NCBI GenBank assembly: GCA_951828515.1
Contig: OX639992.1
Location: 3,140,217 to 3,204,216 of the forward strand
Length of the DNA stretch: 64,000 nt
DNA from: an uncultured Poribacteria bacterium
GTDB taxonomy: Bacteria > Poribacteria > WGA-4E > WGA-3G
Direction: 5' to 3'
In this document: positions 1,093 to 11,805 of the stretch, piece after piece
Layout: each line of letters opens with the position of its first letter
Numbering within the stretch: the stretch's first letter is position 1
Notes under the pieces: generated by a model
The model's database searches: none
What the model saw: only the letters and a program-made list of their open reading frames with translations
What the model was told of the DNA's origin: nothing
Program-made: the position numbers and the translations under genes

Positions 1093-1187
1093 TTTTTAAT
1101 TTTACCTTGTGGAAAAATGACGTGCGTTCAGAACTCTTAGATGCGCTTCTTAAATCCGCACTCCATTCCATTACGTGCTAACGTTTT
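1093..1187 (-). repeat. R-type repeat, copy 2 (variant head)
   Basis: Read on the minus strand, it runs from AACGTTAGCACGTAATGGA through GGATTTAAG to CCACAAGGTAAAATTAAAAA. The head differs from the GCCTGC hairpin type but matches the head of the copy at 55443-55555, so at least two subfamilies share one tail. Confidence 0.6.
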
Positions 1188-1190
1188 TGA

Positions 1191-2240
<1,050 letters not shown>

Positions 2241-4788: not shown

Positions 4789-4866
4789 AGGGCATTGTCT
4801 CACAATCCCAAGTCTTTAGACTTGGGTCAAGTCCTGCTCAGGAGTCTGCCGACACTCAAAAAAGAT

Positions 4867-4896
4867 TTAACAAAGGTGTGTATTTTGTGGTATAAT
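4867..4896 (+). promoter_or_regulatory. Promoter of the tnpB leader
   Basis: TTAACA, an 18-base spacer and TATAAT. TTGTGGTATAATTAA around the -10 is repeated exactly at 11380-11394 in front of the second structured leader. Confidence 0.6.
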
Positions 4897-4901
4897 TAAG
4901 T

Positions 4902-4980
4902 TACCTTATCAGCGGTGGGTGTTGTAGCACCTACCGCTCCGCTACAACGGGATAAGGTATCCTACAGATAAGGTGATACC
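4902..4980 (+). ncRNA. Predicted pseudoknotted leader RNA upstream of tnpB
   Basis: Direct reading shows four features. Stem A is AGCGGTGGGT (4911-4920) with ACCTACCGCT (4929-4938). Its whole 8-base loop GTTGTAGC (4921-4928) is perfectly complementary to GCTACAAC (4941-4948), an H-type pseudoknot. Outside it, TACCTTATC (4902-4910) pairs with GATAAGGTA (4951-4959), or alternatively with a second GATAAGGT (4967-4974). GTGATACC and the tnpB ATG (4984) follow. Two mutually exclusive closing partners just before a start codon suggest a translational or folding switch. A topologically equal leader with different bases is at 11396-11488. Confidence 0.7.
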
Positions 4981-4983
4981 CTA

Positions 4984-5824
4984 ATGGCACATAAATCACA
5001 TAAGATAGCACTTCGGGTGAATCCGAAGCAAGACGCATGGTTTCGTAGCCAATGCGGATATGCTCGGTTCGCTAAGAGTAGACGGAAAGCGTATCAAGTT
5101 ACCCAAAATCGGTTGGGTGAAAATGTTTCAAGAGTTGCGTTCTGAGGGTAAGATCCTTCGTGTGACCCTATCCAAGACGGAAACCCATAGGTGGTTTGGA
5201 TCTATCACCGTTGACACAGGAACACCGAATGTTCGACGTGATACGCGTGGACTCCCTGTAGTCGGCATAGACGTAGGTATCAACTCACTGGCAACACTGG
5301 ATACAGGTAAACACTACGATAATCCAAGACCTGTGAAACGCTATGAAAGGAAACTTGCCCGTGAGCAACGCAAGTTAAGTCGTAAAGTATTTCTATCCAA
5401 TAACTGGTATAAGCAAAAAGAGAGGGTAGCTAAACTACACTATAAAATTGCTTGTATCCGTAATGACGCACACCACCAAGCGACTACAGAGATAGTCAAT
5501 ATGGCAAGTGCGATTGGCATAGAAACCCTTAGCATTACGAACATGCTCAAGAACAGAAAACTTGCCAAGGCACTCTCAGATAGTGCGTTAGGCGGTTTTC
5601 TCTCCAAACTCAAATCCAAAGCAGAAGTGCTTGGAATACCTGTTATAGAAGCGCCACACTTCTTTGCGTCCAGCAAGACGTGTAGCAAATGTGGGTATGT
5701 CAAAGAGGAACTCTCATTATCAGAGCGTATATTTCATTGTGAGTTCTGTTATACCTCTATAGACAGGGACCAAAACGCTGCAATAAATCTAAAGAACCTC
5801 GCCGTGGGCTACACGGAGAGTTAA
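4984..5824 (+). pseudogene. tnpB: tnpB (IS605 OrfB-type RNA-guided nuclease), internally deleted and frameshifted
   Basis: The true start is ATG 4984, giving MAHKSHKIALRVNPKQDAWF and GYARFA. The sequence then jumps, in another frame, to SLRVDGKRIKLPKIGWVK (readable from ATG 5060). The intervening N-terminal part of a normal ~370-400 residue TnpB is missing, so a deletion with frame change lies near 5078. The C-terminal half is intact: the RuvC Asp in GIDVGINSLATL, Glu in GIETLSITNML, the zinc ribbon CSKCGY…CEFC and the final Asp in SIDRDQNAAINLKN. TnpB family proteins cut DNA guided by an RNA from the element's right end. This copy is probably inactive. Confidence 0.85.
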
Positions 5825-5828
5825 AACG

Positions 5829-5915
5829 CTTGTGGAGTTTGTGCAAGACCTCCACAAGGAGGCAACAAATGACGAAGCAAGAATCCCACGACTTCAGACG
5901 TGGGAGTATCAACGT
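5829..5915 (+). ncRNA. Candidate right-end guide-RNA (omega/reRNA) scaffold of the tnpB element
   Basis: After the tnpB stop there is a perfect stem CTTGTGGAG/CTCCACAAG (5829-5858), followed by the terminal hairpin (5885-5904). In characterised TnpB systems the guide RNA covers the 3' end of tnpB and the right end, with the guide taken from flanking DNA. The position here is right, but expression and the exact 5' limit cannot be seen. Confidence 0.45.
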
Positions 5916-8680: not shown

Positions 8681-11368
8681 CTAAAAAAGTTGTTGAGGTC
8701 CTTGGACGTGACTGAAATAAGTCTGTGTCAGGACATCGGAAATAGCGATCAGTATCTGCGCAAGCCGAACCAAAAGCTTTTCTAATCCTCTACGTTGTGT
8801 TGTATGCTCCGAGCGTTCTGAGAGGTCCACTGTATTAGAAAGTTGCAACTGCGTGAGTGCCTCCAAAATGAGTTGTTCCTCTTCGCTGAGCCGATAGCCG
8901 AGCCTCTCTCTCGGAAGGGCACCGATCTGTTCCTCAAGTCGTTTTAACTGATACAGGAGTGAACGCGGATTGTGTTCGTCGAGAAGTAGCAACTCAAGAA
9001 CAGTTGGAAAATGGAGGGCTACTCGATATCGACTGCGATAAGTGATTAAACTTTCAGCCGCGGCGAGGACGGATTCAAGTAAGAGGCGCTCGATCCAGTC
9101 ATCTTGCACTGCGACGAGGCTTGAACGGCAAAGCATAATGAGAAGCAAGGCACGTTCAATACGCCGCCCCATATCCAAACTGATCCAACCGATCGTTTGC
9201 GTCATGCTCTCCGCGTAAAGCCCGCTTAATGCTGAAAGGAAAATCATCAGCTGATCGAGTGAAGCTAATTCTGTCTCTTGTAAGGCGAGATCCGTCAATA
9301 TTTGTGCATCTGTACTCCCATCTCCGTGGACATTCTTATCGAGTGTAGCGCATAAATCCTCAATGTTGTTCATCACACGCCACGTATCGGTGGACCAGCG
9401 GTCTCGAACTGCATACGCCGCACTGAGGAGTGCCTGCAGTGTGGACACAAGACTCCCAGTGTTCTCTGTGTCCCGCATGATCGAAAGGAGTTCACTTTCT
9501 AACGATTGTTCATCCTTGTTGACAAAGCCAGGGTGAGACGACCTCAAACCGGTGAGAGAGTCGAGCATACTACGGAGATATGCAAGTTCAGAAACTTCCC
9601 TCGCGTCCTCACCAACGATCTCCGTGAAAACGGTGGACGGTGGCACCTCGCCTAAAGTGGAAGTCTCCAATCCCATCTTGCCCATCTTGACTTTATCCAA
9701 CATGATTCGGAGGAGACGTGCTTGTCCCTCTGCGCGTTCCGCATAGCGACCAACCCAGAATAGATTTTCAGCCGCCCGACTCGACAATCCAGCAGGATTC
9801 GTAGAAGCAGGACCCCGTACCTCGCTGATACGCCGTTGCCATAAACTGACATGCGGTTCAGGTTCAGACGCAAGCACCCAGGTGTCCTTACTCACACCAC
9901 CATCCTGAATCGAGATTGTCAATTCACCCCTTTCGCCTGCACAACGCGTGAGCCCGCCCGGCATCACCGCGTAGCCATCCTTCTCCGCAAACAGAAAAGA
10001 ACGGAGGATTGCGCGGCGCGGTTCAAGTTTTCCATCAATCAGTGAAGGTGTTGTCGAAAGGTGAACGTGTTCCTGTCCGACGTACAGGTGTGGGTTCGCA
10101 TTAATCTGGCTGCGGAGCGCGTCAAGTTCCGCCTTGCTAAGTTGAGTCCCAAACAGGGAACGCTCGCCCGGTTGACGATGAATGGTTTTAATAACCAACG
10201 CCTCAAGGTTCGCCAGCACATATTCATGTTGCTTCGGTTCCCCGCACCACCACGTTGCAACAGAAGGAAGACGAAGGTCTTCGCCCATCAACCGTTTTGA
10301 GATGTTAGGTAGGAATGGCATCAAGCCTGGATTCTCTAAAACACCACTGCCCGGTGGATTTATCACGACCACATTTCCCTGTCGAATTACCTCCAGTAAG
10401 CCTGCAACACCAAGCCGAGAATCTTGGCGGAGTTCCAATGGATCGCAGAAAGTATCGTCAACTCGGCGGAGAATAATATCGACGGGACGTAGCCCGTCAA
10501 GCGATTTCAGCCAAACACGTCCATCCCATACCGTCAAATCGTCACCTTGGACTAAGGTATAGCCAAGGTAATTTGCGAGATAGGCATGCTCAAAGTAAGC
10601 TTCGTTGAGTGGACCAGGGGTGAGTACGACGACGTGTGGGTTGTCTATTTGATGCGATGCGATACGGACAGCACTTTCGAGTTGGTATTGCAGATCCGCT
10701 ACACTGTTTTGGAGGGCACGGAAGAAAAAGGAGAGTCGGTGAACACCGACTTCGCCAAAGAGATTTGGCAGTGCTCGCGCAAGTACAGTGCGGTTTTCGA
10801 GCGCGTAACCCGCCCCCGATGGTGCTTGTGCCCGATCACTGAGTATCCATATATTGCCGTCCGAGCCGCGCGCCAAATCAGCGGCATAATTCAACAGGAA
10901 CGGGAATCCGGACGGAGCAAACCCGACACACGCACGTAAAAATCCTGCATGGGCATAGACCACTTCTGGCGGTATCACACCATCTTTGATTAAGGTGCGT
11001 TCCCCATAGAGATCCATCAAGATTAGATTTAGCAGTTCCGCACGCTGTGTAAGTCCTTCAGAGATGGCTTGCCAGTCAGTGTTCGAAATAATAAAGGGAA
11101 TGGGATCGAGTTCCCATGGACGATGTTTCTGCCGTTCTCCGTGCAAAACGTAAGTAACACCATTCTCTCGTAGCAGACGTCGCACCTCTTCGTCGCGGGA
11201 TGCCATCTCTGCAAGCCCTAAAGTATCGAGTGCTCGCATAAAGGCGTGCCAGTGCGGATTGACCTGACCATCTGGATTCAGCATCTCATCAATCTGTCCA
11301 CTTGGAATGCCGCTTGCACGTCCATAGGGCACGTTATATGGGTTTGTTGTATCAAAAAGATTTGACAT
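8681..11368 (-). CDS. Circularly permuted ATP-grasp / alpha-E fusion protein
   Basis: This 895-residue protein fuses two domains that are separate genes at 15371-17797. Residues ~20-490 form a circularly permuted ATP-grasp (PWELDPIPFIISNTDW, VVLTPGPLNEAYFEHAYLA, VDIILRRVDDTFCDP, SIQDGGVSKDTWVL). Residues ~530-890 form an alpha-E domain (LSSRAAENLFWVGRYAERAE), with its motif repeated in a second half. ATP-grasp ligases join an amine to a carboxylate via an acyl phosphate. The segment equivalent to KEANQSGGYGM in the unfused paralog reads KTIHRQPGERSLFG here, so its nucleotide loop differs. ATG at 11368 lies in the spacer of an opposing consensus promoter. Confidence 0.88.
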   Translation of the reverse strand: MSNLFDTTNPYNVPYGRASGIPSGQIDEMLNPDGQVNPHWHAFMRALDTLGLAEMASRDEEVRRLLRENGVTYVLHGERQKHRPWELDPIPFIISNTDWQAISEGLTQRAELLNLILMDLYGERTLIKDGVIPPEVVYAHAGFLRACVGFAPSGFPFLLNYAADLARGSDGNIWILSDRAQAPSGAGYALENRTVLARALPNLFGEVGVHRLSFFFRALQNSVADLQYQLESAVRIASHQIDNPHVVVLTPGPLNEAYFEHAYLANYLGYTLVQGDDLTVWDGRVWLKSLDGLRPVDIILRRVDDTFCDPLELRQDSRLGVAGLLEVIRQGNVVVINPPGSGVLENPGLMPFLPNISKRLMGEDLRLPSVATWWCGEPKQHEYVLANLEALVIKTIHRQPGERSLFGTQLSKAELDALRSQINANPHLYVGQEHVHLSTTPSLIDGKLEPRRAILRSFLFAEKDGYAVMPGGLTRCAGERGELTISIQDGGVSKDTWVLASEPEPHVSLWQRRISEVRGPASTNPAGLSSRAAENLFWVGRYAERAEGQARLLRIMLDKVKMGKMGLETSTLGEVPPSTVFTEIVGEDAREVSELAYLRSMLDSLTGLRSSHPGFVNKDEQSLESELLSIMRDTENTGSLVSTLQALLSAAYAVRDRWSTDTWRVMNNIEDLCATLDKNVHGDGSTDAQILTDLALQETELASLDQLMIFLSALSGLYAESMTQTIGWISLDMGRRIERALLLIMLCRSSLVAVQDDWIERLLLESVLAAAESLITYRSRYRVALHFPTVLELLLLDEHNPRSLLYQLKRLEEQIGALPRERLGYRLSEEEQLILEALTQLQLSNTVDLSERSEHTTQRRGLEKLLVRLAQILIAISDVLTQTYFSHVQGPQQLF

Positions 11369-11390
11369 TGACCTAAAATTGTGGTATAAT
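11362..11390 (+). promoter_or_regulatory. Perfect consensus sigma70 promoter facing away from the operon gene
   Basis: TTGACA, a 17-base spacer and TATAAT, both boxes exact. It reads rightwards, antisense to the ATP-grasp operon, and overlaps the start codon of the fusion gene (11368). It drives the structured leader at 11396-11488. Confidence 0.7.
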
Positions 11391-11395
11391 TAATG

Positions 11396-11488
11396 TAACA
11401 CTTTGGACACCACTCTGACCCTGCACACTTGTGCAGGCGGTGTCCGCTACTGTCAGAGGTAGTCAAGAGGTGTTAAGTGTGATACCAC
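11396..11488 (+). ncRNA. Second predicted pseudoknotted leader RNA
   Basis: Stem A is GGACACC (11405-11411) with GGTGTCC (11439-11445). Within its loop, CTCTGAC (11413-11419) pairs downstream with GTCAGAG (11452-11458), an H-type pseudoknot. An extra hairpin CCTGCAC/GTGCAGG (11420-11437) sits inside. The outer strand TAACACTT (11396-11403) can pair with AGGTGTTA (11468-11475) or with the adjacent AAGTGT (11475-11480). GTGATACC (11479-11486) follows. The order of pairings equals that at 4902-4980, while the paired bases differ. Confidence 0.65.
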
Positions 11489-11589
11489 TGAAAACATATA
11501 CTGGGCAGTTCACGCGTAATTGAGCGAAAGCTTGTATCGGGGCGGAGGTGAAATCCCGCACGTTGTATTGCTGCCCCTTTTTCAACGTT

Positions 11590-11607
11590 TCTCTCCTTTT
11601 GGAGAGA
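11590..11607 (+). repeat. Hairpin inside the IS605 remnant
   Basis: TCTCTCC, TTTT loop, GGAGAGA. It is a perfect 7-bp stem within the non-coding interior of the remnant and may be part of a transcribed RNA. Confidence 0.4.
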
Positions 11608-11805
11608 GGCAGGCGGGGATAGCCATGAAAGTTTTCCGCATGATGTGCCTAAAGGGATTTTTTCACCTTTTAGGGAATCGCCTGCGGGTGGAGACAACGT
11701 AAGACGGTTGTTCTTCGGAAAAACCGCAAATGTCTACGAAGCCGAAGCCCCTACCTTTAGGTTGTGGGTGCTATCACGAATGAGGACTCCGCATCTGGCA
11801 CCGAG

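Follow-up and report, generated by a model that had tools for sequence, protein, structure and literature searches.

Leaders of two mobile elements in the window

The window analysed here, a stretch of 64,000 nucleotides, is part of a 5.85-Mb chromosome of an uncultured Poribacteria bacterium. It contains two elements with a predicted pseudoknotted leader at the start of a tnpB gene or of its remains. The features of element 1, which is IS200/IS605-like, are listed below with the strand names used throughout.

4807..4826, plus strand: subterminal left-end hairpin CCCAAGTCTTTAGACTTGGG, seen in the sequence, with family counterparts upstream of leaders
4867..4896, plus strand: sigma70-type tnpB promoter, TTAACA - 18 nt - TATAAT, with an extended -10 (11/12 match, TG before the -10)
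4902..4910, plus strand: strand O (TACCTTATC), the outer strand with two alternative partners (9/9 pairs with P1, or 8 plus one G-U of 9 with P2; family covariation)
4911..4938, plus strand: stem S1, 4911-4920/4929-4938 (9 Watson-Crick pairs and one G-U of 10), whose 8-nt loop 4921-4928 is strand K
4939..4950, plus strand: mini-stem S4 (CC 4939-4940/GG 4949-4950), whose loop 4941-4948 is K' (K:K' 8/8 Watson-Crick)
4951..4959, plus strand: P1 (GATAAGGTA), the first partner of O (9/9 pairing; family helix 96.3% paired)
4967..4974, plus strand: P2 (GATAAGGT), the second partner of O, closely 5' of the start codon (8/8 pairing; family helix 97.3% paired)
4984..5824, plus strand: tnpB relic with its ATG at 4984 (tblastn with the TnpB of locus L123)
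5884..5905, plus strand: right-end hairpin TCCCACGACTTCAGACGTGGGA, seen in the sequence

All the pairings that a sequence-only reading of the window had proposed for this leader are present, up to the ATG. That reading missed the decay of the gene itself. Relative to its intact homologue L123, tblastn placed residues 1-30 in one frame and residues 114-364 in another, at 90% identity; residues 31-113 (L123 numbering) have been lost, with a frame shift. The family covariance model described below does not recognise the 4902 leader, which has diverged too far. Two loci of the same genome with an intact tnpB, L122 and L123, have nearly the same leader.

Element 2 comprises the following features.

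11362..11390, plus strand: promoter, TTGACA - 17 nt - TATAAT, seen in the sequence
11396..11482, plus strand: leader (36.1 bits with covariance model R1; pairings), made up of O 11396-11403, S1 11405-11411/11439-11445, K 11413-11419, a P3 hairpin 11420-11437, S4 11447-11450/11459-11462, K' 11452-11458, P1 11468-11475 and P2 11475-11482
11488..11777, plus strand: deletion derivative with a tnpB start relic (CTG AAA ACA TAT, cf. MKTY type), then directly 3' an omegaRNA-like region and the right end ..GGTGCTATCAC (compared with the 3' ends of L021 and L025)

This second leader, already described as having the same order of pairings with an inserted hairpin, scores 36 bits with the family model. 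It pairs at 7/7 in S1, 7/7 in K, 7 plus one G-U of 8 in O:P1 and 7/8 in O:P2. No tnpB ORF was found downstream of it, the gene having been lost. Both structures exceed chance expectation, with MFE z-scores of -4.1 for the 4902 leader and -3.2 for the 11396 leader. With a strict descriptor of the architecture they scored 66 and 54, respectively, and the best shuffle reached 48.5 (385 shuffles, other tnpB upstream regions).

Next to element 2, the N-terminal codons (MSNLFDTTNPYN.., window 11300-11368) of a minus-strand ORF at 8681-11368 are the complement of left-end DNA of the element, and this DNA recurs 5' of the L020, L021 and L025 leaders. The predicted start of this ORF may therefore be wrong or transposon-derived.

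Size and distribution of the family

The covariance model R1 was built from eight leaders of the genome that harbours the window. In that genome it retrieved 38 leaders with stricter filters and 39 at E<=0.01 with laxer ones; a 40th match, at E=0.39, is a chance match. The next gene on the same strand codes for a PF07282 protein in 35 of the 39 cases, another three precede tnpB remnants, and the last is truncated. Apart from this truncated copy and the chance match, every hit in the genome stands before tnpB, and none before a metabolic gene. The IS607-type TnpBs of the genome (L124, L126) are devoid of it and serve as an internal negative control.

A search of Poribacteria genomes with a covariance model, which the sequence-only reading had recommended, yielded R1 matches in 48 of the 85 phylum genomes, including 38/38 of the genus, for a total of about 600 (sum over the table of phylum genomes). 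With the strict descriptor, the architecture was detected at 7 of 12 Poribacteria TnpB loci and at none of 68 related TnpB loci outside Poribacteria (Cyanobacteria, Proteobacteria, Firmicutes, archaea and others). At L136, one of the five Poribacteria loci that it missed, a leader is visible but imperfect. As for coverage by existing Rfam families, Rfam 15 gave no gathering-level match in the window, and at E<=0.5 the leaders of 12 loci matched no family either. Based on these analyses, it looks like nearly all Poribacteria TnpB mRNAs begin with this knotted fold, an apparently uncatalogued candidate on/off switch for nuclease production.

Leaders within the genus are related, such that these counts do not represent independent events. 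To guard against kinship, we rely on how many different pair types each K position shows and on the reappearance of the architecture in distant subtypes.

Nearly identical leaders precede TnpBs that are only ~25% identical and have different omegaRNA 3' ends. Together with its 5' position, this argues against the leader being the guide RNA, and the suggestion that it forms part of the functional RNA of the element found no support. The converse also occurs: some close pairs of elements differ over the entire leader. The tnpB genes of L025 and L047 are only 1.6% different, yet their whole leaders differ, which suggests that leaders are exchanged between elements; such exchange may contribute to the differences in the other close pairs.

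Several other observations were made at these loci. The genome codes for 48 TnpB domains and has only one strong match to a Y1 transposase, so many TnpB-only elements may depend on one or a few TnpA proteins for their mobility. At L133 (~1400-1750), the strongest tnpA gene is followed downstream by a tandem array of a ~50-nt repeat (acgattttctatagacatagcacccctacagggtgcggcactttaaatgaa). At L014 (~2.58 Mb), a sub-threshold match to the TPP riboswitch (1109-1207, minus strand; 48.6 bits, gathering threshold 54.3) adjoins an element that has a leader but no tnpB, and a gene for an ABC transporter permease is alongside.

Covariation of the core

The strands follow the order O - S1 - K - P3 hairpin (usual) - S1' - S4 with K' in its loop - linker - P1 - P2 - AUG, with K 7-8 nt long. 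Among 145 distinct leaders, S1 is 98.2% Watson-Crick, K 98.0% and P3 92.8% (plus 7.0% G-U), and the O helices reach 95.9% for O:P2 and 87.4% for O:P1, the latter including a loose first pair. In alignment A4, composed of 86 held-out leaders, none of which was used in training, and with K outside the model, K:K' was 98.5% paired with a covariation score of 0.868. Shuffles gave 0.157 (0/500 reached the score) and slid controls at most 0.101. The three core pairs of S4 are not significant in type I. The support for S4 comes from its fourth pair (138 leaders: 72 with T-A, 60 with A-T) and from the other subtypes, where it reads CUAC/GUAG or CCG/CGG.

The claim of a conserved, compensatory RNA with two competing closing strands is thus borne out, and its undoing by a lack of covariation or by a family of two copies did not come about. 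Its description as an H-type pseudoknot may need revision. The pairing is certain; nevertheless, the connectors between the pseudoknot stems of the 4902 leader measure 0 and 2 nt, and a 2-nt connector between a 10-bp S1 and an 8-bp K would impose strain. With K' placed in the S4 loop in the family, a kissing pair between loop and bulge fits better. Comparison of the leaders shows a compact predicted core made of S1, P3 and the kissing K:K'. An HDV-like ribozyme, whose strand order is similar in outline, was rejected by inspection, since P3 has an ordinary tetraloop in most copies.

The sequence of K is free, with only its pairing kept, as its rate of change (0.34-0.42) is close to that of upstream DNA (0.33-0.46) in the close bins. 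We rejected the idea that K serves as an element-specific barcode: the sharing of K by unrelated tnpBs amounts to 1.6% within this genome and 1.0% between genomes, so there is no within-genome diversification.

Promoter, start codon and strand

The leader has a sigma70 promoter on its 5' side and the start codon on its 3' side, and is internal to the element, away from its tip. A promoter matching at least 10/12 was found at the expected place in 104 of 133 family members, 109 of 140 leaders have 3-4 nt between the -10 hexamer and O, and the end of the model coincides with the start codon in 130 of the 140. TTGTGGTATAATTAA is not a part of the RNA. It has 19 sites in the genome with one mismatch allowed, against one control match, and 13 of them are followed by the same RNA architecture; it is the extended -10 promoter of this genome, also present before tRNA and other genes. 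The GTGATACC tail shared by the two window leaders proved not to be a family feature.

No Shine-Dalgarno core was found in the 18 nt before tnpB in type I leaders (0/130, vs 26/42 window ORFs and 12% of random 15-mers). Initiation in type I may thus be weak, unusual or by another route.

In P3, G-U pairs are frequent (~7%) and A-C almost absent, which points to a sense-strand RNA. Antisense promoters in the 5' region are no more frequent than in shuffles (2/133 vs a null of 7.6), and for this lack of signal we rejected antisense control as in IS10/IS200.

The same G-U and A-C counts bear on a role as DNA. The ends of IS200/IS605 elements function as single-stranded DNA hairpins, and the leader is kept in deletion derivatives such as element 2; it might then be a left-end DNA structure used by a TnpA transposase, with no role as RNA. 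We regard this as very improbable. Most copies have a separate hairpin of the CCCAA..CTTTAG..TTGGG type ~75-100 nt 5' of the leader, and the leader starts beside the promoter, stops at the AUG and tolerates G-U but not A-C. With that hairpin and a promoter upstream of the leader, a transposon-tip structure was set aside as the main reading, and a single-stranded DNA role for the leader is not needed.

Two competing partners of strand O

In the 86 held-out leaders, O:P2 is 97.3% and O:P1 96.3% paired, and 0/500 shuffles reach either covariation score. The three strands covary as sets: O/P1/P2 read CAAG/CTTG/CTTG in 50 leaders, CAGG/CCTG/CCTG in 50, CACG/CGTG/CGTG in 19 and CGTG/CACG/CACG in nine, besides rarer sets. 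Position 8 of O forms AU, GC, CG or UA pairs simultaneously against P1 and P2. Dual partners with unrelated sequences recur in other genera and families (L137, L138, L324, L327 and L329). As both helices use the same bases of O, O:P1 and O:P2 compete.

In subtype II, whose segments were delimited by hand, the AUG lies inside P2 in 10/10 leaders, with several different O sequences, and between P1 and P2 there is a purine-rich stretch resembling a Shine-Dalgarno sequence (10/10). These two features are the strongest pointer to a putative translational control. How P2 would occlude the start in type I is less clear, given the absent Shine-Dalgarno core.

Calculated energies favour the P1 state in type I, by a mean difference of -2.8 kcal/mol, making P1 the default. 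For type II and for the window leader the two states come out almost level, and L123, L137 and L138 favour P2. This near-balance would suit a switch or a kinetic timer. Slippage could partly maintain the P1/P2 tandem repeats, which counts against a switch.

Proposed mechanism and alternatives

Based on these comparisons, we consider it probable that the RNA is a cis-acting 5' leader of Poribacterial TnpB (IS1341-like) elements, in which strand exchange would control the initiation of tnpB translation. The comparative data support the earlier suggestion that the leader may regulate expression. O adjoins the expected transcription start and is complementary to the tandem strands P1 and P2. Pairing of O with P1 would leave the start region free (ON). 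Pairing with P2 would draw into a helix the bases immediately before the AUG or, for subtype II, the start codon (OFF). It is probable that the knotted core keeps O near P1 and thereby sets the balance or the timing. Candidate triggers are the RNA's own folding kinetics, temperature, passing ribosomes, and a host protein or small molecule; no effector of the switch was found. TnpB is an unlikely one, since nearly the same leader serves TnpBs only ~25% identical. More tentatively, the leaders could represent a Poribacteria-wide class of regulatory RNAs that would sense a host or cell signal and switch an RNA-guided nuclease on or off, with a kissing-knot core gating an anti-strand present as two tandem copies.

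The start of O near the expected transcription start could also mean that RNAs from the element's own promoter and read-through RNAs differ in O. The leader might then insulate against read-through, keeping tnpB untranslated in transcripts from host promoters, or shield the 5' end of the mRNA from RNases, with no regulated switch, and 5' structures hiding the ribosome-binding site (RBS) are known for IS200 (PMC12594629) and for ISPpu9 (PMC8450116). We find such insulation or protection unlikely, as on its own it leaves unexplained both the match of O to P1 as well as P2 and the AUG inside P2 of subtype II.

A ligand-sensing riboswitch would fit the anatomy of the leader, the knotted core being the aptamer that binds a host metabolite or ion and O:P1/O:P2 the expression platform. 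Type I leaders show strong conservation of the unpaired UCCCA and GGGG(A/U)UAAA, and the occurrence of one leader type before TnpBs only ~25% identical argues for a shared host signal. However, these unpaired bases are not kept in the other subtypes, no binding pocket conserved across all subtypes was found, and in the genome of the window the putative target is always tnpB and never a metabolic gene. We therefore hold this possibility to be rather improbable.

Finally, TnpB processes its own mRNA into omegaRNA (PMC10278001), and the leader might be a decoy that mimics omegaRNA and allows TnpB to repress its own mRNA; we give this the least credence, since nearly identical leaders before TnpBs only ~25% identical, with different omegaRNA 3' ends, are a mismatch between leader types and TnpB types that weakens autoregulation.

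Comparison with known systems

The closest parallel to the proposed translational control is the 5'UTR of tnpA in IS200 of Salmonella, with its antisense RNA art200. It belongs to the same IS200/IS605 superfamily and hides the RBS by a 5' structure over the initiation region (PMC12594629). In the Poribacteria leaders the predicted pairing likewise covers the initiation region, as P2 abuts or contains the AUG. In contrast, the IS200 5'UTR controls tnpA with a simple stem-loop and an antisense RNA, for which the Poribacteria leaders show no promoter signal. For all but one of the 39 own-genome leaders the downstream gene is tnpB or its relic rather than tnpA, and the leaders combine a kissing core with two competing anti-strands.

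In ISPpu9 of Pseudomonas putida, the consulted part of the report describes a 5'UTR fold that buries the RBS of tnp and represses its translation, together with the sRNAs Asr9 and Ssr9 (PMC8450116). There too the translation of an IS gene is held down by a 5' fold. Unlike the Poribacteria elements, ISPpu9 is not a TnpB element, its sRNAs do the switching, and that part of the report describes no tandem P1/P2 arrangement.

The outer strand common to a core-closing helix and a start-site-blocking helix is reminiscent of translational riboswitches. O would pair with P1 or P2 in a mutually exclusive manner, with three-way covariation and one helix at the start site. The leaders differ from such riboswitches in having no known ligand, no sequence core across all subtypes, and a location only before a mobile-element nuclease. 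TnpB omegaRNA, HEARO and related Rfam RNA families come from the same class of elements. The omegaRNA is nevertheless located at the 3' end of tnpB, ends at the right end of the element and takes its guide from the flank, whereas the leader is 5', between promoter and start codon.

In the literature searched, we found no RBS-hiding 5'UTR for tnpB. Nor did we find there a description of how TnpB production is controlled when the gene travels without its own transposase.

The comparative support for the structure is strong, with hundreds of copies, heavy compensatory change and three-way covariation. TnpB is regarded as the ancestor of Cas12. If the leaders do form a signal-sensing class, they would give OMEGA/TnpB nucleases their first described regulated switch, as far as the literature searched shows. 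Synthetic riboregulators could make use of the design, in which a kissing core gates an anti-strand present in duplicate. For the bacterium itself, the leader offers a direct test of how a genome with ~48 TnpB-encoding regions restrains them.
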